Source: Caldicellulosiruptor naganoensis
GTDB lineage: Bacteria; Bacillota; Thermoanaerobacteria; Caldicellulosiruptorales; Caldicellulosiruptoraceae
Length of the DNA: 64,000 nt
Assembly (NCBI RefSeq): GCF_026914285.1
Contig: NZ_CP113864.1
Span: 2,139,001 to 2,203,000, forward strand
Direction of reading: 5' to 3'
Shown: piece after piece, positions 20,356 through 57,704 of the stretch
Numbering within the stretch: the first letter of the stretch is position 1
Layout of the letters: each line of letters starts with the position of its first letter
Translations under genes and position numbers: made by a program
Notes under the pieces: model-generated
Seen by the model: only the letters and a program-made list of their open reading frames with translations
The model's database searches: none
Told to the model about the DNA's origin: nothing

Positions 20356-20721
20356 GGGGGCGTGTTTTGGAATTCGACGGGGGCAGTCGGATTCCAAACA
20401 GCGGGTAGTGGTTTTCTCGGTGCCACTATAAAAAACCGAGAAGAAAAATAACTGCAGACAAAGCTGAACTCGCTTTAGCTGCATAAATAAGCAGCTAACG
20501 TCCGCCGGAGGTGCCCACGGCCTCCGAGTCGGGCGCCAACCCACGTGGGGCACCGAAAGTAAGGTCGCCTGAGCCTTACTTTTGGGTTAAATCTCAGGCT
20601 GGGGAAGAAAAAGCCTGTCAGTGGGCGTTTTCTTCCCGAGAGGCCAGTACACTGACTGCACCCGGAGAAGTTTGGGGTTCGATGCCTTCGGACGGGGGTT
20701 CGACTCCCCCCGCCTCCACCA
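20356..20721 (+). ncRNA. ssrA: transfer-messenger RNA (tmRNA, SsrA)
   Basis: The 5' end GGGGGCG (20356-20362) pairs with CGCCTCC (20711-20717) to form the acceptor stem, followed by an encoded ACCA (20718-20721). The T-arm GGTTCGACTCC lies just before. The tag frame resumes at GCA 20454 and ends at TAA 20484-20486, coding ADKAELALAA, with the typical ALAA degradation end. The TAACT before the resume codon matches the usual upstream context. Length of 366 bases is normal for one-piece tmRNA. It rescues stalled ribosomes together with SmpB, which is encoded directly upstream with no intervening base. Confidence 0.97.
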
Positions 20722-44605: not shown

Positions 44606-45361
44606 TTAATAAGCATAGAGCTTTCCGTAAGGACGCTTGTTGTATGGAATTAGCTTATAAAATGGCTTTGACATTATAAACTCTTTGCTGTAGCCAAAGT
44701 ATTTTACAAACTCTGTTACGTATTTGTCTATAAACTTGTAATCTTCTTCCTCCATATCAACTATCTTCACTTCTTTCCCCAGCTGATACGGCTGAAGCTG
44801 GCCTCTTAAATACATGACTCCGCCGTGCATACCGGTTCCACAATAAAGCCCTGTTATCTCCTCATCTTCCTTTAAAGTAAGGCCAAGTACAATAATCCTT
44901 CCACCTGCCATGTACTCACCCAAAAAATCTCCCGCCTTGCCACCAACAACAAGTACAGGTACTTTGTCCATATACTCTTTCATGTGAATTCCAACTCTGT
45001 ATCCAACATTGCCTTTAATAAATATCTCGCCGCCACGCATACCGTAGCCTATAATATCCCCTGCTGAACCATGAACTATGATTTTGCCCGCGTTCATGGT
45101 ATTGCCAATACCGTCTTGACCGTTTGCAAAAACCTCTATTGTAAGCCCGTTCATAAAGGCTGCCATATCATTGCCAGGGGTGCCATAGATGTTAAGTTTT
45201 CTGTCTGGGAAAGTCAGCCCGTCACCTATATAGCGCTGACCATTTACGTTTATTAAATCTATCTCTTTATACCCCTCATTTAGCGCATTTTCAATCATCT
45301 CATTGAGTTCTTTGTAGTGTATACCCTTCGCATCTATTGTAAGTTTACCTTTATCTGCCAT
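44606..45361 (-). CDS. gltB3: glutamate synthase GXGXG-domain subunit (GltB3)
   Basis: A 251-residue right-handed beta-helix protein equivalent to the C-terminal GXGXG domain of the large glutamate synthase subunit. Its repeats include GNDMAAFMNGLTIEVFANGQDGIGNTMNAG, GDIIGYGMRGGEIFIKGNVGYRVG and GDFLGEYMAGGRIIVLG. In fused GltB this domain braces the ammonia tunnel between the amidotransferase and FMN domains. I start at ATG 45361, one base after the upstream gene's stop; the GTG at 45376 abuts a G-run with no spacing. Last gene of the split glutamate synthase operon. Confidence 0.88.
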   Translation of the reverse strand: MADKGKLTIDAKGIHYKELNEMIENALNEGYKEIDLINVNGQRYIGDGLTFPDRKLNIYGTPGNDMAAFMNGLTIEVFANGQDGIGNTMNAGKIIVHGSAGDIIGYGMRGGEIFIKGNVGYRVGIHMKEYMDKVPVLVVGGKAGDFLGEYMAGGRIIVLGLTLKEDEEITGLYCGTGMHGGVMYLRGQLQPYQLGKEVKIVDMEEEDYKFIDKYVTEFVKYFGYSKEFIMSKPFYKLIPYNKRPYGKLYAY

Positions 45362-45362
45362 T

Positions 45363-46631
45363 TTAAGCTTTTGCACCCCCTAAAATCTTCTCTTGCCTCA
45401 GCTCTTTTGGCAAATCTAAGTATCCAAAATCATCGTCAAGGAGTCTGTGCTTTATGCTCTCAACATTTAAGCCCTCTTTTATCATATTTGTTATCATACC
45501 TGCTCTGTCAATTGAGTTTATAAACATAAACCCTAAAACACGGCCGTTTTTGATGTAAATCTTTCTATAGCTATTTTTTTCCTTATCATGCTTTACAAGA
45601 ACCTCTATATCATCTGAGTTTGGCATGACAATTCCTGCTGTTATCATATGCACATCAAAAAATCCTATAGAGTTCATTGGAAAGCCTCTGTCAAAGGTCT
45701 TTTCAACTCCTGCCATATTATAACCTGCCGTCTCGCCCTGATTGTACGCATTCGGCCAGATAGGAATTACTCTTTGCTGCTGATAGACGCAGTCATACCC
45801 CTCTGCGCAGTCACCTGCTGCATATACATCTTCAAGGTTTGTCCTCATATGGTCATCTACAACAATTCCGCGATTGATTTTGAGCTCTGTCCCTTTTAAA
45901 AAGTCAATGTTTGGAACAACACCTATGGCAAACACAACTATGTCGGTATCTAAAACCTCACCATTTTTCAGCTTTACTTTTTCAACCTTGCCATCCCCAA
46001 TTATCTCATCAACAGATGTTTCAAGTTTAAAAACAATCCCGTGTTTTTCCAGTTCATCCTGAACTATCTTTGATGCCTCTAAATCCAAGATAGAGCCCAA
46101 AATCCTGTTTGCAAGCTCAACAACAGTAACCTCCAAGCCTCTTTTGATAAGCGCCTCTGCTGCTTTAAGACCAGAAAGTCCCGCACCAATAACCATTGCC
46201 TTTTTTGCACCATTCTTGATAGCTTCATCTATGGCTTTTACATCATCAAACTTGATAAATGTAAAGACATTTTTTAGCTCAAATCCTTTTGTAGGTGGCA
46301 CGAAAGGCTTCCCACCTGTTGCAATAAGGAGCTTATCGTATTTTACTTTACTTCCATCATCAAGCACAACCTCTTTGTTTTTGAAGTCAACTGAGACAGC
46401 TCTTTTGCCAAGGATTGCTTCTACCTTGTTCTTTTCGTAATAATCCTCATCCCTTATATACATCTTGTTCTCGTCAACTTTTCCACCAAGATAGTATGAA
46501 ATAAGCGGTCTTGAATACACCCTGTACTTTTCATCTGAGATTACAACAATAGGGTTTTGGAGATCTACTTTTCTTATCGCCTCAATACAGCCACAGGCTG
46601 CAACAGAGTTTCCTATTATAACATATCTCAT
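45363..46631 (-). CDS. FAD/NAD(P)-dependent oxidoreductase of the glutamate synthase complex
   Basis: A 422-residue pyridine-nucleotide-disulfide-type flavoprotein. FAD-binding VIIGNSVAACGCIEAIRK lies at the N-terminus, the KLLIATGGKPFVPP motif follows, NAD(P)-binding MVIGAGLSGLKAAEALIKRGLEVTVVE is in the middle, and the second FAD motif VYAAGDCAE comes later. It lacks the redox CxxxxC of disulfide reductases and resembles NADH oxidase/nitrite-reductase-type electron carriers. Its position inside the glt operon suggests it passes electrons between NAD(P)H and the ferredoxin subunit, replacing GltD. A direct role with ferredoxin is inference. Confidence 0.87.
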   Translation of the reverse strand: MRYVIIGNSVAACGCIEAIRKVDLQNPIVVISDEKYRVYSRPLISYYLGGKVDENKMYIRDEDYYEKNKVEAILGKRAVSVDFKNKEVVLDDGSKVKYDKLLIATGGKPFVPPTKGFELKNVFTFIKFDDVKAIDEAIKNGAKKAMVIGAGLSGLKAAEALIKRGLEVTVVELANRILGSILDLEASKIVQDELEKHGIVFKLETSVDEIIGDGKVEKVKLKNGEVLDTDIVVFAIGVVPNIDFLKGTELKINRGIVVDDHMRTNLEDVYAAGDCAEGYDCVYQQQRVIPIWPNAYNQGETAGYNMAGVEKTFDRGFPMNSIGFFDVHMITAGIVMPNSDDIEVLVKHDKEKNSYRKIYIKNGRVLGFMFINSIDRAGMITNMIKEGLNVESIKHRLLDDDFGYLDLPKELRQEKILGGAKA

Positions 46632-46652
46632 CTTGTTTCATTTCCCCCTTTT

Positions 46653-47120
46653 TTACACCTCTTTGATTACAAGTGCCTCGTTCGGGCAGTTCTTGACGCA
46701 CGCAGGCTCGCCAAGCTCTAAGCACAAATCACATTTAGATGCTGCTTTTTTGTTCTCTCCGCGCCTTACTGCCCCGTGCGGACATGCCATTATACACGAC
46801 CAGCAGCCGACACACTTTTCCTCATCGCAGATGACTCTTCCGTCTTCAAGCTTTTTCATAGCACCTGTGATACAAGCTTTAGTGCAGGGGGCATCGTCGC
46901 AATGTCTACATTGCAGTGCAAAGGTTGTCCACTCACCACTTTTTTCCTCAACTAAAATCCTTGGAGTTGGTTTTGAATCCTTATGTTTGTTGTAAAGTTT
47001 TACAAGCTCATGGGCCTTCACAGTTGGCTTTTTGTATTTAGAGTGGGCATACACACAGTAGACCTCGCACAAATGGCAGCCCACACACACCTCTTCTTTT
47101 GGAAATATCTTCTTTGCCAC
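46653..47120 (-). CDS. polyferredoxin electron-transfer subunit (4 x 4Fe-4S)
   Basis: A 155-residue HycB/DmsB-like iron-sulfur protein with four Cys clusters: CVGCHLCEVYC, CRHCDDAPCTKAC, CVGCWSCIMACP and CDLCLELGEPACVKNCP, together able to hold four [4Fe-4S] centres. It should shuttle electrons to the FMN/[3Fe-4S] subunit GltB2. I start at GTG 47120, nine bases after GAGGGGG. The longer frame from 47144 overlaps the end of gltB2 by 20 bases and begins before that site. Confidence 0.88.
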   Translation of the reverse strand: MAKKIFPKEEVCVGCHLCEVYCVYAHSKYKKPTVKAHELVKLYNKHKDSKPTPRILVEEKSGEWTTFALQCRHCDDAPCTKACITGAMKKLEDGRVICDEEKCVGCWSCIMACPHGAVRRGENKKAASKCDLCLELGEPACVKNCPNEALVIKEV

Positions 47121-47124
47121 CTTT

Positions 47125-48633
47125 TTAGACCCCCTCTCCTGCATGCTTCACACCTAAGATCTCCATCTCTTTTTCTGTAAGCCCAACTGCCCTGAGCATA
47201 AGCCTGTTTCCTCTCAAGCTCTCCAAAGCATTTATCCCCATCAGGCCCAGCATCTCTTTTATCTCATGAGCCCATGCTTTTAGCAAGTTTGCCGCTCTTC
47301 TTGCACCAATCTCTGGATTTAGTCTTTTTACCAAAACTGGGTCCTGTGTTGCAATACCCCAGTTGCACTTTCCAGTGTGGCACTTTTGGCAAACGTGGCA
47401 CCCCAAGGAAATCAGCGCTGCTGTTCCAATGAAAACAGCATCAGCACCAAGTGCAATGGCTTTTACAACATCTGCGCTATTTCTGATTGACCCTGCAACA
47501 ATGATTGATACCTGATTTCTAATTCCTTCTTCTCTAAGTCTTGAGTCCACCGCTGCCAAAGCCAGCTCAATAGGTATACCAACATTATCTCTTATTCTAA
47601 GCGGCGCTGCACCTGTTCCGCCTCTGACACCATCTATTGTGATAAAATCAGCCCCAGCTCTTGCAATACCAGAGGCAATTGCCGCAACGTTGTGAACTGC
47701 TGCAATCTTGACACCAACTGGTTTTGTGTAGTTTGTTGCCTCTTTTAGCGCAAAAATGAGCTGTCTTAAATCTTCAATTGAATAAATATCATGGTGTGGT
47801 GCTGGTGAGATTGCATCAGAACCAATTGGAATCATCCTTGTTCTTGATACCTCTTCACCAACCTTCTCACCAGGAAGGTGCCCGCCAATCCCCGGCTTTG
47901 CACCCTGACCTATCTTTATCTCAATTGCCGCACCTGCATTTAAATAGTCAACATCAACTCCAAATCTTCCTGATGCGCACTGAACTATTGCTCTTTCTTT
48001 GTACTTGTAAAGCTTTTGATGAAGGCCACCTTCACCTGTATTCCAGTATGTTCCTACCTCAACTGCTGCTGCCGCCAAAGACTCGCAAGCATTGAGTGAA
48101 ATAGAGCCAAATGACATCGCAGAAAACATAATAGGTACTTCTAATTCAAGCTGTGGCGGAAGTTTGGTTTTAAGATTACCATTTTCATCAAACTCAAGTT
48201 TGTCAGGTTTTCTACCAATAAAGGTTTTAAGCTCCATTGGCTCTCTCAGCGGGTCAATTGACGGATTTGTAACCTGGGACGCGTTTATTAAGAGTCTATC
48301 CCAATAAATGGGAATAAGCTTGTCGCAACCCATACCAGTCAGAAGTATTCCGCCTGTTTCTGCTTGTTTGTATATTTCATTTATATATGAAGGTGTCCAG
48401 TTTGCGTTCTCTTTGAATGCATTTTCTGTCTTTTTGATTGTAATTGCTTTTGTTGGGCACATTACAACACATCTGTGACATGCAACACACTTTGAAGAAT
48501 CTGCAAACACTCTGTCTTCTTCTTCATCATATTCATGAACTTCGTTTGCACACTGTTTGACACACACTTTACAGCGAATGCACTTTAGCTCGTCCCTTAC
48601 AACCTCAAATTCGTTTTCATATAGCGAAATCAT
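47125..48633 (-). CDS. gltB2: glutamate synthase FMN-domain subunit (GltB2) with N-terminal ferredoxin
   Basis: A 502-residue archaeal-type glutamate synthase catalytic subunit. Two N-terminal [4Fe-4S] motifs (CIRCKVCVKQC and CVACHRCVVMCP) precede the FMN-binding TIM barrel: PIMFSAMSFGSISLNA, NTGEGG, AKPGIGGHLPGEKV, ITIDGVRGGTGAAP and GADAVFIGTAAL. CHVCQKCHTGKCNWGIA provides the [3Fe-4S] ligands. It makes glutamate from 2-oxoglutarate and channelled ammonia. The start is ATG 48633, overlapping the gltB1 stop by four bases (ATGA); a longer frame to 48711 runs into gltB1 and is rejected. Confidence 0.93.
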   Translation of the reverse strand: MISLYENEFEVVRDELKCIRCKVCVKQCANEVHEYDEEEDRVFADSSKCVACHRCVVMCPTKAITIKKTENAFKENANWTPSYINEIYKQAETGGILLTGMGCDKLIPIYWDRLLINASQVTNPSIDPLREPMELKTFIGRKPDKLEFDENGNLKTKLPPQLELEVPIMFSAMSFGSISLNACESLAAAAVEVGTYWNTGEGGLHQKLYKYKERAIVQCASGRFGVDVDYLNAGAAIEIKIGQGAKPGIGGHLPGEKVGEEVSRTRMIPIGSDAISPAPHHDIYSIEDLRQLIFALKEATNYTKPVGVKIAAVHNVAAIASGIARAGADFITIDGVRGGTGAAPLRIRDNVGIPIELALAAVDSRLREEGIRNQVSIIVAGSIRNSADVVKAIALGADAVFIGTAALISLGCHVCQKCHTGKCNWGIATQDPVLVKRLNPEIGARRAANLLKAWAHEIKEMLGLMGINALESLRGNRLMLRAVGLTEKEMEILGVKHAGEGV

Positions 48634-49724
48634 ACTATCACCCCTTCGTCCAAAGTAACATAAACAGCTTCGCCACCCTTTGGCATCCAGACCTTTTCTG
48701 GGTCTTTGCAAATTTCTCTAATAGCCGACTCTTCTGATGCAACATAAACAAAATCGCCTTTTTGCGCTGCAACCAGCGGCCTTAGCTTTATCCTATCATT
48801 TAATGCTAATATTCCATTTGCGAAACCTAAAATGATAGAAAACGGCCCATTTACAAGGCACGATTGGTAAACTATCCTGATAGCTCTCAGTTTCTCTCTT
48901 TCTTGTTCGCTTTGCCTGTCGATCACACTCCAAAACGGCGCTGCTAACGCTTTTGTTGCAATCTCAACAGGAAGTCCGTGTCTTCTTAGAAGAAGGTCAA
49001 AAAGGTATGCCATGACCTCGGTGTCTGTTCTGAGTGTACATTTGTATCCAAACATCTCTAAATACCTATAATTTGTGCCATATGACGAAATCTCGCCATT
49101 GTGGACAATTGACCAGTCAAGCAGCGTAAACGGATGCGCACCGCCCCACCAACCAGGTGTGTTTGTCGGAAATCTTGAGTGCGCTGTCCAGATATATGCT
49201 TTATATTCATCAATTCTGAAAAACTCGCCTATGTCCTCAGGATACCCAACTCCTTTGAATGCGCCCATGTTCTTACCGCTTGAAAAGACATATGCACCAT
49301 CAATCTGGCTGTTTATGAACATAACACTGTCCACCACAAAGTCCTCTTCTGTTTTTTCTGTGTCTCTCAACCTTTTTTCAAGAGGTTTTACAAAGTATCG
49401 CCAAACAATTGGAGCGTTTTGAATGCTTGAAACTTTTCTTGTTGGAATAACCTCACTCTCTAATATTTCAAAGTTTTGGTTTAGAAAGTGTTCTGTGTCC
49501 TCCTTTGCTTTTATATCATCAAAGAATAGATGAAAAGCATACCAGTCTTTCCTGTCAGGATAGATTCCATAAGCTGCAAACCCACCACCAAGTCCATTTC
49601 CTCTCTCTTTCATAATTGCAATGGAATTTATAATGTCTGTACCAGAAACCCTCACACCCTTCTTGTTTATAAACCCAGAAATAGCACAACCTGATGGAAT
49701 CCTAACTTGCCCTTCCCTTAGCAA
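48630..49724 (-). CDS. gltB1: glutamate synthase glutamine amidotransferase subunit (GltB1)
   Basis: A 364-residue class II (Ntn) glutamine amidotransferase corresponding to the N-terminal domain of GltB. The nucleophile is most likely Cys13 (PSGCAISGF), exposed by removal of a 12-residue propeptide. Further marks are AHSRFPTNTPGWWGGAHPF, VHNGEISSYGTN and LRTDTEVMAYLFDLL. It releases ammonia from glutamine. The start is TTG 49724, 7 bases after AGGAGGT. First gene of the operon gltB1-gltB2-ferredoxin-flavoprotein-gltB3, transcribed from the promoter at 49849-49877. Confidence 0.92.
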   Translation of the reverse strand: MLREGQVRIPSGCAISGFINKKGVRVSGTDIINSIAIMKERGNGLGGGFAAYGIYPDRKDWYAFHLFFDDIKAKEDTEHFLNQNFEILESEVIPTRKVSSIQNAPIVWRYFVKPLEKRLRDTEKTEEDFVVDSVMFINSQIDGAYVFSSGKNMGAFKGVGYPEDIGEFFRIDEYKAYIWTAHSRFPTNTPGWWGGAHPFTLLDWSIVHNGEISSYGTNYRYLEMFGYKCTLRTDTEVMAYLFDLLLRRHGLPVEIATKALAAPFWSVIDRQSEQEREKLRAIRIVYQSCLVNGPFSIILGFANGILALNDRIKLRPLVAAQKGDFVYVASEESAIREICKDPEKVWMPKGGEAVYVTLDEGVIV

Positions 49725-52854: not shown

Positions 52855-53082
52855 CCTGCCTTCCCCCTTTCAGTGCAAAGCCACAAGCTGTTATCAATTT
52901 TTCTATTGAAAAATTTTAAGATGTATATCCCAAAATTTCAATCCATAGTTTGAAACAATATAGATTTTATAACTAATTCTGGCATCTAAGTCTTTTACAT
53001 AAATTTTAAAAATGGCTTGAAATTTTCATTTTCTTAAGGTAGAATATAATACACAATTAAATACTGCTACCTCCTTTTGTTT
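52855..53082. other. intergenic region between PBP1A and the riboswitch
   Basis: No gene. It holds the PBP1A leader (minus strand) and, on the plus strand, a candidate promoter for the riboswitch transcript: TTTTCA (53023-53028), 16-base spacer, TATAAT (53045-53050). Confidence 0.5.
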
Positions 53083-53191
53083 ATGTTAAAAGGGAGTAGC
53101 ACCGAAAGCCTTATCCTCAACATCCGCGAGGAGGTCTTTTGCCTTCTCTGGGGATAAGGGCCCAAAAAAGGGCGTGCGAGACTTTTAACAT
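53083..53191 (+). ncRNA. yybP-ykoY (Mn2+) riboswitch aptamer
   Basis: Closing stem P1 pairs ATGTTAAAAG (53083-53092) with CTTTTAACAT (53182-53191). Inside are the conserved GGGAGTAGC after P1 5', a CCGAAAG element, paired CTTATCC/GGATAAG arms, and GGGC...GCGAGAC just before P1 3'. This is the layout of the yybP-ykoY family, which binds Mn2+. The gene that follows is a P-type cation ATPase, a classic target of this class. The 3' strand of P1 is also the 5' arm of the terminator at 53181-53229, so ligand binding should favour read-through and switch the gene on. Recognition is by eye. Confidence 0.78.
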
Positions 53192-53229
53192 GTGATAATT
53201 TACATCACATGTTAAAAGTTTTTTTTTAT
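53181..53229 (+). terminator. riboswitch expression platform terminator
   Basis: ACTTTTAACATGTGA (53181-53195) pairs perfectly with TCACATGTTAAAAGT (53205-53219), followed by nine or more T. It competes with P1 of the aptamer for 53182-53191. Confidence 0.9.
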
Positions 53230-53324
53230 TTGTCTTTTAAAAAGATGTTTTTAAAACCATAATAGTTTTTGATGGGAACTTCTAAAAACTCTACAAAATA
53301 CTCATGAGGAGGGGGAATTTAAAG

Positions 53325-55982
53325 TTGAACCAAAATATTTCTAATTTTCACTCAAAGGACATAGAAACAATTTTGGAAAACCTCAAAACCACTCTAAATG
53401 GACTTTCATCCGAAGAAGCCGAACAAAGGCTTAAAGTGTATGGAAAAAATATAATTGAAGAAGGAAAAAAGAAATCAATATTTCTTCTTTTCTTGGAACA
53501 ATTCAAAAACGTGATGGTATTCGTACTGCTTGCTGCTGCAGTTATATCAATCCTTCTCGGCGAGGCGGCAGACGCTGCAATCATCGTAGCAGTCCTGCTC
53601 ATCAACGCAGTCTTTGGAGTCGCGCAAGAGCTGAAAGCTGAAAAAGCAATAGATGCCCTAAAAAAACTTAATATGCCATATGCAAAAGTCTACAGAGACG
53701 GACATTTGATGCAAATCAGAACCGATGAAATAGTAGTTGGAGATATAATTGAGATTGAAGCTGGAGATATCGTCCCTGCAGATTTGAGACTCATTGAAAG
53801 CGTTAATCTTAAAATTGATGAGTCAGCTTTAACTGGCGAATCTGTTCCTGTTGAAAAAGAGGCAAACAATGTTCTTGACGAGTCAACTCCTCTTGCAGAA
53901 AGGACTAATATGGCTTTCATGGGAACAATTGTAACGTATGGTCGAGGAAAAGGCGTGGTTGTTGCAACAGGAATGAAAACAGAGATAGGCAAAATTGCAA
54001 ATTTTGTAAATATCCAGTCCACAATTGACACCAAAACTCCTCTTCATGAGAAGTTAGAAGAAATTGGTAAATATCTCACATTTGGAATACTGGCAATTGC
54101 CTTTATTGTTTTTGTGACAGGACTTCTTTACGGTCGAGAGACGTTTGAAATGTTTTTAACAGCTGTGTCATTGGCTGTTGCTGCAATTCCTGAAGGTCTT
54201 CCTGCTGTGGTGACAATTGTCCTTGCAATTGGTGTTCAAAAAATGGCAAAACGAAATGCTATCATAAGAAGACTGTCTTCGATTGAAACCTTAGGAAGAG
54301 TTGAAGTTATTTGTTCTGATAAAACAGGTACACTTACTCAAAATAAGATGAATGTTGTAAAAATTTATTGCAATGATAACCTGGTTGAGAACTTTGAACA
54401 TGAAGATAATACAACAAAGACTTTGCTTCACATAATGGCACTTTGCAATGATGTAAAGGTAGACTTGATTAATAAACATCCTCATTTTATTGGCGACCCG
54501 ACTGAAATTGCTTTGGTAAAATTCGCCTATGAAAAGGGCTTTAACAAGAATGCAATTGAGAAGGTATTAAAGCGAGTTTACGAAATACCTTTTGATTCTG
54601 TTAGAAAGATGATGACAACTGTGCATGAAATTAGAAATGACGAAAAACTTTTTGTGTTTTCCAAAGGTGCTGTAGATGTAATAATTAACATATGCAAATT
54701 TATAATGGTAAATGATGAAATACTACCTCTTGACGAAAATATGCACCACAAAATCTTGCAGGCAAACAAAGAAATGTCCTCCAATGCGCTTAGAGTTTTA
54801 GCTTTTGCATACAAAGAAATTGATAGAACTCAATTAGATGACAAAAATGCTATTGAAGACAATCTCATCTTCATAGGACTTGTTGGAATGATAGACCCAC
54901 CACGCCCAGAAGCCTACAATGCAGTTGAGGTATGCTATCAAGCAGGTATCACACCTGTGATGATAACAGGAGACCACAAAGACACAGCTGTAGCAATTGC
55001 AAAAGAATTGAAGATAATTGATAAAAACAAAGACGAACTTTCGCAGGTTCTGACAGGCAGTGAAATTGAAAAATTAGATGATCAACAATTAAAAGAAAAA
55101 GTAAAAGAGGTAAAAGTTTACGCAAGAGTGTCTCCAGAGCACAAATTAAGAATTGTTAAAGCGTGGAAAAGTCATGGTAAAATAGTCGCTATGACGGGCG
55201 ATGGAGTGAACGATGCACCCGCTTTGAAAGCAGCTGATATTGGAATTGGCATGGGAATAACAGGAACGGATGTAACAAAGAATGTATCTGATGTTATCTT
55301 AGCAGATGATAACTTTGCAACAATTGTTGCAGCTGTTGAAGAAGGAAGAAAGACTTATGACAACATACGAAAGACCATTCAATTTTTGCTTTCATCAAAT
55401 GTTGGAGAAGTTGTAACACTGTTCTTTGCAACACTTTTAAACTGGGTAGTATTATACCCGATTCATATTCTCTGGGTAAACCTTGTTACTGACACTTTCC
55501 CAGCTTTAGCACTCAGTATGGAAAAAGCAGAAAGTGATGTAATGAAAAGAAAGCCAAAGAAAACTCAAGAAAATATATTTGCTGGTGGGGTTGGCTTTTC
55601 AATTCTGTATCAAGGTTTTCTTAAAGGCTTGATAACATTGCTGGTATTCTTTATTGGAAATAAATTATATGGCCACAAAACTGCCATCACCATGACCTTC
55701 ATGCTACTGAGCCTCATACAACTTACTCATGCATACAATGTGCGTTCAAACATCAATTCGCTATTTAAAATGGGAGTGTTTTCTAACAAATACCTAAACC
55801 TTGCTTTTATAGCTTCATTTTTGCTTCAGGTTGTAGTGCTAACAGTTGCACCGCTTAGAGAATTATTCAAACTGACCTTTTTAAACTTTGAGCAGTGGAC
55901 AATCATAATTTTAGCGTCACTTTCTATAGTTCCTATTGTGGAAGTAGTAAAATACTTTACACGTCACTTTCATAAAGAATAA
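53325..55982 (+). CDS. P-type cation-transporting ATPase (Ca2+/Mn2+ type)
   Basis: An 885-residue P2-type ATPase of the SERCA/PMR1 group. It has the actuator TGES, M4 AAIPEGLPAVV with the ion-binding Glu, phosphorylated Asp332 in DKTGTLTQNKM, nucleotide-domain MITGDHKDTA and GDGVNDAPALKAADIGIGMG, and M6 NLVTDTFPALALS with the Asn/Asp ligands. It pumps a divalent cation out of the cytoplasm. Sequence type says Ca2+, but control by a Mn2+ riboswitch suggests Mn2+ export as a real role. The start is TTG 53325 after GAGGAGGGGG; the ATG at 53304 overlaps that site. Transcription depends on read-through of the riboswitch terminator. Confidence 0.92.
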   Translation: MNQNISNFHSKDIETILENLKTTLNGLSSEEAEQRLKVYGKNIIEEGKKKSIFLLFLEQFKNVMVFVLLAAAVISILLGEAADAAIIVAVLLINAVFGVAQELKAEKAIDALKKLNMPYAKVYRDGHLMQIRTDEIVVGDIIEIEAGDIVPADLRLIESVNLKIDESALTGESVPVEKEANNVLDESTPLAERTNMAFMGTIVTYGRGKGVVVATGMKTEIGKIANFVNIQSTIDTKTPLHEKLEEIGKYLTFGILAIAFIVFVTGLLYGRETFEMFLTAVSLAVAAIPEGLPAVVTIVLAIGVQKMAKRNAIIRRLSSIETLGRVEVICSDKTGTLTQNKMNVVKIYCNDNLVENFEHEDNTTKTLLHIMALCNDVKVDLINKHPHFIGDPTEIALVKFAYEKGFNKNAIEKVLKRVYEIPFDSVRKMMTTVHEIRNDEKLFVFSKGAVDVIINICKFIMVNDEILPLDENMHHKILQANKEMSSNALRVLAFAYKEIDRTQLDDKNAIEDNLIFIGLVGMIDPPRPEAYNAVEVCYQAGITPVMITGDHKDTAVAIAKELKIIDKNKDELSQVLTGSEIEKLDDQQLKEKVKEVKVYARVSPEHKLRIVKAWKSHGKIVAMTGDGVNDAPALKAADIGIGMGITGTDVTKNVSDVILADDNFATIVAAVEEGRKTYDNIRKTIQFLLSSNVGEVVTLFFATLLNWVVLYPIHILWVNLVTDTFPALALSMEKAESDVMKRKPKKTQENIFAGGVGFSILYQGFLKGLITLLVFFIGNKLYGHKTAITMTFMLLSLIQLTHAYNVRSNINSLFKMGVFSNKYLNLAFIASFLLQVVVLTVAPLRELFKLTFLNFEQWTIIILASLSIVPIVEVVKYFTRHFHKE

Positions 55983-56023
55983 GATCAAAATATACTTCTG
56001 AAAAATTTAGCATTTGCTTTCAC

Positions 56024-56053
56024 TTGACACTTTTTGTATCAAAGTAGTATTCT
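56024..56053 (+). promoter_or_regulatory. promoter of the cation exchanger gene
   Basis: A perfect TTGACA (56024-56029), an 18-base spacer and TATTCT (56048-56053), about 48 bases before the GTG start. Confidence 0.65.
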
Positions 56054-56101
56054 TATTAAAGTATTAGCTTGAAGCATTAACAATAGAAAGGGATAACTAA
56101 G

Positions 56102-57106
56102 GTGGTAATATCATATGTTATAAAGCTGATTTTCTCTTTGTTTATAATACTTTTTGGTTGCACTTTTTTCACAAATGCAGTTGAGTGGTTTGGCAAAAGA
56201 ATAAACTTAGGACAAGGGGCAGTTGGAAGTATCCTGGCAGCAGTTGGAACTGCCCTTCCTGAGACCATAATACCTATTATTGCAATTCTGTTTGCCAAAG
56301 GAGAAAGTTCACATGATGTTGGTATTGGAGCAATTGCCGGCGCCCCTTTTATGCTCGGTACTTTGGCCTTTTTCATAACTGGACTTGCAGTGATAGTTTA
56401 CACTCTTTTTAAGAAAAGAACCTTGAAGATGAACGTTGATTTGAGCGTATTCGAACGCGACCTTACTTACTTTCTCATTGTTTATGGAGTTGCAGTTGTG
56501 ACAACATTTATTCACAATCATAAAACTATAAAGACAATAATAGCAATTGGACTGTTCGTTGCTTATCTTGTCTATGTCAAAAAGACACTTGCAGATGAGA
56601 GTGAAGATACCGAAGGAGAAGAATTGGAAGAACTTTACTTTACAAAGTTTTTAAAACTCCCAAACAACCTTCTGTGGATACTTTCTCAGCTTCTTTTTTC
56701 ATTGCTGCTTATAATCTATGGTGCACACTTGTTTGTTGATTATGTTCAAAAAGTTGCAATTATGATTAGCGTTCCTGCACTAATACTTTCAATAATCATT
56801 ACACCTATTGCAACAGAGCTACCTGAAAAACTAAACTCTATTATCTGGATTGGAAAGAAAAAAGACACTCTTGCACTGGGAAATATCACAGGTGCAATGG
56901 TATTTCAATCTTCTGTTCCAGTTGTATTTGGAATAATATTTACACCATGGAATTTAAGAGGTATAACAATGGTTTCAGCTATCTTAGCATTTATGTCCGC
57001 ACTTCTAAATCTTATATGGGTTAAGATTAAAAAATCTGTAAACCCATTTGCACTTTTGTTTGGTGGGGTTTTATACCTAATTTTCTTGGGCTATGTTTTC
57101 TTATAA
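56102..57106 (+). CDS. CaCA-type sodium/calcium exchanger family protein
   Basis: A 334-residue membrane protein with about ten helices and the two inverted alpha-repeats of the Na/Ca exchanger family. The first is GSILAAVGTALPETIIPIIAI and the second is IITPIATELPEKLNSIIWIG, each with the acidic P-E/LPE ion-binding residue. A short acidic cytoplasmic loop (ADESEDTEGEELEELY) lies between the halves. It exchanges Na+ or H+ for a divalent cation. It sits 119 bases after the P-type ATPase with its own promoter, so the pair handles the same or related ions under separate control. GTG start at 56102. Confidence 0.88.
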   Translation: MVISYVIKLIFSLFIILFGCTFFTNAVEWFGKRINLGQGAVGSILAAVGTALPETIIPIIAILFAKGESSHDVGIGAIAGAPFMLGTLAFFITGLAVIVYTLFKKRTLKMNVDLSVFERDLTYFLIVYGVAVVTTFIHNHKTIKTIIAIGLFVAYLVYVKKTLADESEDTEGEELEELYFTKFLKLPNNLLWILSQLLFSLLLIIYGAHLFVDYVQKVAIMISVPALILSIIITPIATELPEKLNSIIWIGKKKDTLALGNITGAMVFQSSVPVVFGIIFTPWNLRGITMVSAILAFMSALLNLIWVKIKKSVNPFALLFGGVLYLIFLGYVFL

Positions 57107-57185: not shown

Positions 57186-57644
57186 ATGAGTGATAGAGAA
57201 ATCTTAGAGCTTATCTTACAAAAGGTTGAAACCTTGGACCAAAAGATTGACAGGCTTGAGGCAAGACTTGACAGACTTGAAGCGAAAGTCGAAAGCCTTG
57301 AAAAGAGAGTTGAAAACCTTGAAAAGAGAGTTGATAGTCTCGAAAAGAGAGTTGAAAAATTAGAACTTCAAGTTGCAGAAAATACTCAAATCTTAAAAGC
57401 ATTAGAACATTTAGCACAGGTAAACAAAGCTGAACACGACAACTTTACTCACCAGCTTGCAAGGATGGAAGGTTTGTTAAACTCTGTAATTTCAAATAAC
57501 AGCAAAGAACACCAAGCTCTATTTAAACAAACTGAAGAGAATACTCAAAAAATTGTAAAACTTGAAAAGGATATGACAATTATTGAATCAGTATGTGGGA
57601 AAAATATGCAAGATATCGCATTTTTAAAGGGTGTGAAGATTTAA
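57186..57644 (+). CDS. coiled-coil protein with perfect heptad repeats
   Basis: A 152-residue protein that is almost wholly coiled coil. Residues 10-65 run in uninterrupted heptads (LDQKIDR LEARLDR LEAKVES, then three near-identical units LEKRVEN, LEKRVDS, LEKRVEK from residue 38), followed by a second helical half ending ...VCGKNMQDIAFLKGVKI. No membrane segment, signal or catalytic motif. Such short repeats occur in bacterial scaffold or tropomyosin-like proteins; the role is unknown. A TGAGGAGA ribosome site precedes the ATG and a strong terminator follows, so it is a real single-gene unit. Confidence 0.8.
   Translation: MSDREILELILQKVETLDQKIDRLEARLDRLEAKVESLEKRVENLEKRVDSLEKRVEKLELQVAENTQILKALEHLAQVNKAEHDNFTHQLARMEGLLNSVISNNSKEHQALFKQTEENTQKIVKLEKDMTIIESVCGKNMQDIAFLKGVKI
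57297..57359 (+). repeat. 21-bp tandem repeat, three copies, coding for heptads
   Basis: Three consecutive 21-base units (57297, 57318, 57339) share CTTGAAAAGAGAGTTGA with only 1-4 changes between copies. The near identity at DNA level suggests recent duplication, so copy number may vary among strains. Confidence 0.85.
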
Positions 57645-57668: not shown

Positions 57669-57704
57669 AAGGACTCTCTGCAAAAAAGCGGAGAGTCCTT
57701 TTTT
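57669..57704 (+). terminator. intrinsic terminator after the coiled-coil gene
   Basis: AAGGACTCTC (57669-57678) pairs perfectly with GAGAGTCCTT (57691-57700), followed by TTTT. Confidence 0.9.

Follow-up and report, generated by a model that had tools for sequence, protein, structure and literature searches.

The question raised by this locus is why a gene that reads as a calcium pump should follow an RNA of a manganese-responsive type and precede a gene for a cation exchanger. The locus occupies positions 53,083 to 57,106 of a 64,000-nucleotide stretch of DNA from Caldicellulosiruptor naganoensis (contig NZ_CP113864.1, positions 2,139,001 to 2,203,000), here called the window, and all coordinates below are those of the window unless a genome is named. 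An earlier note, made from the letters of the window, described a Mn2+-type riboswitch ahead of a Ca2+-type ATPase, followed by a CaCA-superfamily exchanger; this description is borne out by the predicted fold, by homology searches in both directions, by Pfam matches and by the same arrangement in all 12 genus genomes. With a probability of about 0.78, the RNA is a yybP-ykoY Mn2+ riboswitch without the P2 hairpin that acts as a transcriptional ON switch, and the ATPase and the exchanger are most likely exporters of Mn2+, possibly also of Ca2+. Judged by sequence comparison, it can be regarded as a divergent addition to a known riboswitch class, with known kinds of target genes. A literature search found no paper on this element in the genus.

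The RNA of 53083-53191 is predicted to fold at -45.9 kcal/mol (z -5.08), and none of 200 shuffled sequences folded as well. Its L1 (GGAGUAGC..GAGAC) and its L3, which carries the candidate metal-contacting adenosine, are those of the yybP-ykoY class. L1 and the AACA of L3 are invariant in 12 of 12 genus copies and the U after AACA in 11 of them, and in 50 aligned relatives L1 starts with GGAGTA and L3 reads CAACA, CATCA, CGTCA or CGACA. The metal-contacting role of the L3 adenosine, in the ACA-U (ACA48U) loop of X. oryzae, is described in PMC6754395, and by comparison with that loop A53122 should be the metal-contacting residue. Set against the RF00080 yybP-ykoY class, for which L. lactis and X. 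oryzae crystal structures are available (PMC6754395), the element has L1 and L3 in the same positions, an L3 of the ACA-U type, P4, the same P1.1 switch helix, the terminator overlap and metal-transporter genes downstream. It differs in having no P2 hairpin, which gives a three-way rather than a four-way junction, and in having no RF00080 match at the thresholds tried. Where the crystallised aptamers carry P2, a linker of 6-8 nucleotides is found, which in the genus copies leaves no room for a hairpin beyond one pair; the junction thus retains its P1 and P3 legs and varies in P2. A linker of at most 6 nucleotides occurs in 19 of the 50 aligned relatives (18 of 49 distinct places, in a hand-chosen sample), so that the P2-less form is not unique to this genus. 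Loss of P2 as a mark of ATPase-linked copies was ruled out, P2-less copies being found also ahead of UPF0016 and TerC-like genes. High conservation within the genus limits covariation to a two-sided change in 3 of 36 pairs. The window RNA and its genus copies are assigned to the class by the L1 and L3 motifs and the junction, and Mn2+-dependent folding and gene control are predicted from this membership.

A search with the RF00080 covariance model had been named as the check that could overturn the assignment, and its outcome was negative: there was no match in the window at the gathering score (45 bits), none at E <= 1 in the local stretch and none in any of the 13 genomes of the order. The miss looks like a false negative. 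Among 299 genomes sampled across the phylum, RF00080 matches at E <= 0.01 in 58 and passes its cut-off in 7. The gathering score is treated here as a database threshold and not as a biological trait, and the model performs poorly throughout the phylum sample; homology was therefore tested in both directions with other models, whose E-values are rough owing to short calibration. The model R3 holds 50 matches from 49 source loci (49 distinct places, one of them present twice, as L093 and L100), none from the 13 order genomes, although two sources (L060 and L061) are metagenome-assembled genomes titled only 'Clostridia bacterium', whose order is not established. Its alignment was made with the model R2, in whose alignment three genus copies (those of the window, L002 and L009) were present, whereas the member sequences of R3 contain none. 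Among the 49 source loci of R3, seven exceed the RF00080 cut-off in the 299-genome search. R3 matches the window element at 74.1 bits (E 8.0e-16, a rough value, genome-wide) as the sole strong match of its genome, and each of the 13 order genomes contains at least one strong copy. In the opposite direction, R1, built from the 12 genus copies alone, finds 13 loci outside the genus in the 299 genomes; judged by eye from its motifs, the downstream frame is an ATPase in five, TerC-like in four and UPF0016 in three, which accounts for 12 of the 13, and L096 ends at a contig edge. These cross-matches point to homology, in sequence and structure, with yybP-ykoY loci outside the order genomes and fill a blind spot, the order going from 0 of 13 genomes by RF00080 to 13 of 13 with a copy by R3. 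Loss of P2 as the sole cause of the Rfam miss was ruled out, since the P2-less loci L100 and L104 pass the Rfam cut-off.

The overlap between aptamer and terminator that the earlier note placed at 53182-53191 was recovered, the same strand being found in both predicted helices: it is the 3' strand of P1.1 and, in the terminator, pairs with 53209-53218. When the transcript is folded as it grows, P1.1 has a probability of at least 0.84 up to an end at 53212, and the terminator takes over by 53215-53218. At full length the terminator form reaches -59.2 kcal/mol and the form with P1.1 forced -50.5 kcal/mol. Because the full-length optimum without ligand is the terminator, the element looks in these folding models like a switch that is off by default. 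What we infer from this and from relatives is the ligand, the direction of switching and the substrate of each transporter, and the following sequence of events would fit. At high cytoplasmic Mn2+ the ion would dock L1 against L3, with A53122 as the expected inner-sphere adenosine; docking would stabilise P1.1 (53083-53092 with 53182-53191) and so deny 53182-53191 to the terminator; RNA polymerase would then continue into the ATPase gene and might go on to transcribe the exchanger gene, as no terminator is predicted between them. The two proteins would perhaps stand in for the UPF0016 exporter that is absent from the genus.

The element is present in 12 of 12 genus genomes, each time ahead of the ATPase gene, and the exchanger gene adjoins the ATPase gene in all 12. 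This includes one genome (G009, locus L005) in which the ATPase is internally deleted, with residues 46-598 gone, and the riboswitch and exchanger stay. Predicted structure, common strand, conservation, family relationship and association at the level of the regulon were all obtained directly.

The reading frame of the ATPase could start at 53304 or at 53325; the TTG at 53325 lies behind a good Shine-Dalgarno sequence and is conserved in all 12 genus copies. The protein has clear Pfam matches and exceeds the cut-off of the SERCA-type model TIGR01116 (720.5 against 703.4 bits) and of the PMCA-type model TIGR01517 (526.4 against 507.05), and stays under that of the PMR1-type model TIGR01522 (755.3 against 798.3). 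Its best solved relatives are 6zhf, a calcium-transporting ATPase, and 9euq (lmo0841), which we take to be the protein called LMCA1. The ion-site motifs of M4, M5 and M6, whose role was established in work on SERCA, are all present as PEGLP, SSNVGEV and NLVTD. Three ATPases that stand behind riboswitches in other parts of the phylum (L143, L144 and L146) have quite different M5 and M6 motifs, and the riboswitch is therefore attached to more than one ATPase subtype. The genome of the window also holds a second P2A-like ATPase (G000:C1:1113820-1116319, L159) in two frames, one of 696 amino acids and one read with one stop; the core motif GGAGTAG[CT] was not found in the 4,956 bases surrounding it.

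The exchanger matches PF01699 at 82.5 bits in two stretches, the twofold repeat of the CaCA superfamily, and falls below the Na+/Ca2+ antiporter model TIGR00367 (72.7 against 179.65 bits), which places it outside the NCX type by that model. Its alignment with the CaCA relative NCX_Mj (the M. jannaschii Na+/Ca2+ exchanger, PDB 5jdf), at 40.9 bits only, keeps both glutamates, E54 and E242 standing opposite E54 and E213; Q269 takes the position of D240 and M266 that of N237, and these are positions with roles in the NCX cation site. A comparison of subfamily columns, in which 129 of 130 proteins were kept after a length filter and the frame numbering runs 5 residues higher, found the Met and Gln invariant in 129 of 129 exchangers, riboswitch-led (22 of 22) and others (107 of 107) alike. 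The signature was accordingly rejected as a divider between the two sets. Directly after the exchanger gene lies a gene for a small coiled-coil protein (57186-57644), with a hairpin, spotted by eye, behind it near 57670; the gene may be the third of the unit.

How widely such exchangers are joined to the riboswitch was surveyed in 398 genomes of the phylum, 118 of which hold a homologue at E <= 1e-15. Outside the genus, upstream DNA was examined for 127 homologues; 22 of them, in nine families, directly follow a yybP-ykoY element of the same strand, with a gap of 49-112 nucleotides from the riboswitch to the projected gene start. Genus copies were left out of this count, three representatives being kept for the tree and the residue comparison only. 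One of the 22, L174, was counted on the strength of the motif scan, its R2 match reaching only E 0.1; L226, a motif-scan match without the core motifs, was left out, as was L286 (genome G079), whose gene belongs to a different CaCA subfamily and follows a UPF0016 gene. Matches at contig edges or in fragments were dropped (G115:C66, G158:C258, G158:C8, G145:C48, G299:C128 and G299:C160), the matches of G203 and G067, each found in two pieces, were joined, and the upstream DNA of L200, L238 and L263 is shorter than 700 nucleotides. Seven of the 22 loci were also found by RF00080 in the 299-genome search, and when 16 of the 22 were scanned directly with RF00080, the same seven came up. In a tree of 129 exchangers, made by a quick method and with many weak branches, the riboswitch-led rows fall into several separate groups; no count of origins is drawn, because the group test compares only riboswitch-led with operon rows. 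Four genomes, well suited to a comparison of specificity, hold pairs of exchanger paralogues, one with and one without a detected riboswitch: G070 (L217/L219), G074 (L199/L175), G158 (L228/L263) and G083 (L241/L252). At the L286 locus mentioned above, the order is riboswitch, UPF0016 gene and a CaCA gene of the GTSAPE type.

The sister genus, represented by one genome (G012), separates what Caldicellulosiruptor has joined. There the ATPase and exchanger genes are unlinked and each has its own riboswitch copy: the ATPase orthologue, 83% identical, stands behind a copy of 114 bits in a leader of about 450 nucleotides, and the exchanger orthologue, 76% identical, behind one of 83 bits with a readable terminator overlap. 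A third copy (80.9 bits, G012:C1:115680-115780, L287) precedes a UPF0016/GDT1 gene. At E <= 0.001, UPF0016 was found in the sister genome (1 of 1) and in none of the 12 genus genomes; according to PMC7380456, this riboswitch precedes UPF0016 in 328 of the 333 screened strains that carry the gene. The linked locus of the genus and the three separately switched genes of its sister form a natural experiment on which transporter does what. At the level of the regulon, these associations point to a part in Mn2+ export for a CaCA subfamily annotated as calcium antiporters.

Published precedents are known for each part of the arrangement. For S. pneumoniae, the mgtA aptamer has been described as forming a three-way junction (PMC9495176) and MgtA as a cation ATPase under a Mn2+ riboswitch (PMC11434433), so that this system combines the same three-way-junction yybP-ykoY RNA with an ATPase linked to Mn2+ and Ca2+; it differs in belonging to another lineage, and the available parts of the two papers mention no exchanger. 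C. difficile CD2503 and L. lactis YoaB are P-type ATPases under the Mn2+ riboswitch, of which YoaB is reported to protect from Mn2+ (PMC11477304), and the window ATPase is likened to them as a cation P-type ATPase under the riboswitch, by type and not by residue. The exchanger finds its counterpart in B. pertussis BP3410, a Mn-induced, Mn-exporting CaCA antiporter under yybP-ykoY, cells with functional protein containing about 5-fold less Mn; the accessible text of PMC8546581 mentions no ATPase partner for it. Comparison with relatives suggests that the ATPase and the exchanger both help the cell to expel excess Mn. The proposal of a manganese (and calcium) efflux module in spite of a Ca2+-like sequence thus agrees with these precedents and with the sister-genus copies on ATPase, exchanger and UPF0016.

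Several findings weigh against this reading of riboswitch and transporters. A genome-wide RF00080 search stayed empty even at E <= 10. In predicted energy the P1.1 form lies 8.7 kcal/mol above the terminator form, and switching must therefore be kinetic and aided by the ligand. On its own sequence the ATPase would be named a Ca2+ pump, and for the mgtA RNA of S. pneumoniae a higher affinity for Ca2+ than for Mn2+ has been reported (PMC9495176). The promoter-like sequence TTGACA-18-TA(T/C)TCT stands ahead of the exchanger gene in 12 of 12 genus intergenic stretches. The search of the available upstream DNA returned no riboswitch for 105 of the 127 exchanger homologues, and among these are six class-level f3 homologues (L160 and L162-L166) that lie near the window exchanger in the tree. 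Finally, an MntP-family match exceeds its cut-off in 12 of the 13 order genomes, so that other Mn2+ exporters may exist beside this locus, which argues against a simple replacement of UPF0016. In the genome of the window this match is weak (27.1 and 26.7 bits against a cut-off of 24.4, the former for the protein at G000:C1:379192-379812), and no strong R3 match was found at the MntP-family gene there. A broader proposal, that the CaCA subfamily of the exchanger (GTALPE..GAPFML / ATELPE..GNxTGAMVFQ) consists largely of Mn2+ exporters in the phylum, that the Met and Gln replacing two polar residues of the Na+/Ca2+ site may set a preference for Mn2+, and that in the genus the exchanger and the Mn2+-controlled ATPase form a two-pump module in place of UPF0016, was initially given even odds and is now held tentatively, a little below that, because the MntP-family match is also over its cut-off.

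The calcium-like features of the ATPase could be taken at face value, the RNA then being a descendant of yybP-ykoY that has come to sense Ca2+ or some other divalent ion, and the ATPase a plain Ca2+ pump under the control of Ca2+ load. The SERCA-like ion site and the calcium-transporting names of 6zhf and 9euq would fit, as would the Ca2+ binding of the mgtA RNA, and a review (PMC7266159) expects yybP variants with altered ion specificity. We nevertheless consider a shifted specificity improbable: L1 and L3 fit the class, a sister-genus copy precedes UPF0016, a gene which the strain screen of PMC7380456 ties to this riboswitch, and BP3410 is not induced by Ca2+ (PMC8546581, as data not shown). 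It is unlikely, if somewhat less so, that the ATPase is the sole riboswitch target in the genus and the exchanger a neighbour that is transcribed separately, from a promoter of its own, and has an unrelated function, in Ca2+ transport or otherwise. The promoter-like site conserved across the genus and the many homologues without a riboswitch favour such independence, yet the sister genus has the riboswitch directly on the orthologous exchanger, the riboswitch-exchanger arrangement recurs in nine families, and the two genes stay adjacent throughout the genus even where the ATPase is internally deleted. No terminator was predicted between the ATPase and exchanger genes in the window; together with the conserved promoter-like site, this makes both an own promoter and read-through possible for the exchanger. 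That the hairpins are a chance product or an unrelated attenuator, as the missing RF00080 match and three weak Rfam matches at E 0.02-0.9 (PyrR, SurA and sau-19) might suggest, is scarcely credible. Those three matches lie far under their gathering scores and were dismissed as chance, and the conservation, the R1 and R3 cross-matches and the downstream genes fit yybP-ykoY. A Mn2+-responsive yybP-ykoY switch ahead of two probable Mn2+ exporters is preferred.

The features of the locus are collected in Table 1. The possible leader promoter comes from a consensus scan that returned 21 such sites, against 14.8 expected in shuffled sequence.

Table 1. Features of the riboswitch, ATPase and exchanger locus, in window coordinates.
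Feature	Position	Strand	Basis
Possible sigma-70-type leader promoter, TTGAAA-17-TAGAAT	53017..53045	+	consensus scan only; alternative TATAAT ending 53050
yybP-ykoY-type aptamer	53083..53191	+	fold z -5.08; R3 match 74.1 bits; genus alignment
Aptamer P1.1	53083-53092 paired with 53182-53191	+	predicted fold
Aptamer L1	53093-53098/53178-53181	+	predicted fold, genus alignment
Aptamer P1.2	53099-53102/53174-53177	+	
Aptamer linker in place of P2	53103-53108	+	
Aptamer P3.1	53109-53118/53150-53159	+	
Aptamer L3 with putative Mn2+-contacting A53122	53119-53127	+	
Aptamer P3.2	53128-53135/53141-53148	+	
Aptamer P4	53160-53163/53170-53173	+	
Intrinsic terminator (expression platform), 19-pair stem 53178-53222 then T run	53178..53228	+	fold; visible in 12-genome alignment
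Shine-Dalgarno sequence of ATPase gene	53306..53315	+	read from sequence; purine-rich block in the alignment of the 12 genus copies
P2A-type (SERCA-like) cation ATPase, 885 amino acids, TTG start	53325..55982	+	Pfam; TIGR01116; best PDB relative 6zhf; ion-site motifs
Promoter-like site of exchanger, TTGACA-18-TATTCT	56024..56053	+	consensus scan; genus comparison
CaCA-superfamily exchanger, 334 amino acids, divergent cation site	56102..57106	+	PF01699 82.5 bits; NCX_Mj alignment; subfamily columns

Elsewhere in the window, a transfer-messenger RNA gene at 20356-20721 is the only Rfam match at gathering level, and a split set of archaeal-type glutamate synthase genes, named from reading the open reading frames, occupies 44606-49724 on the minus strand.

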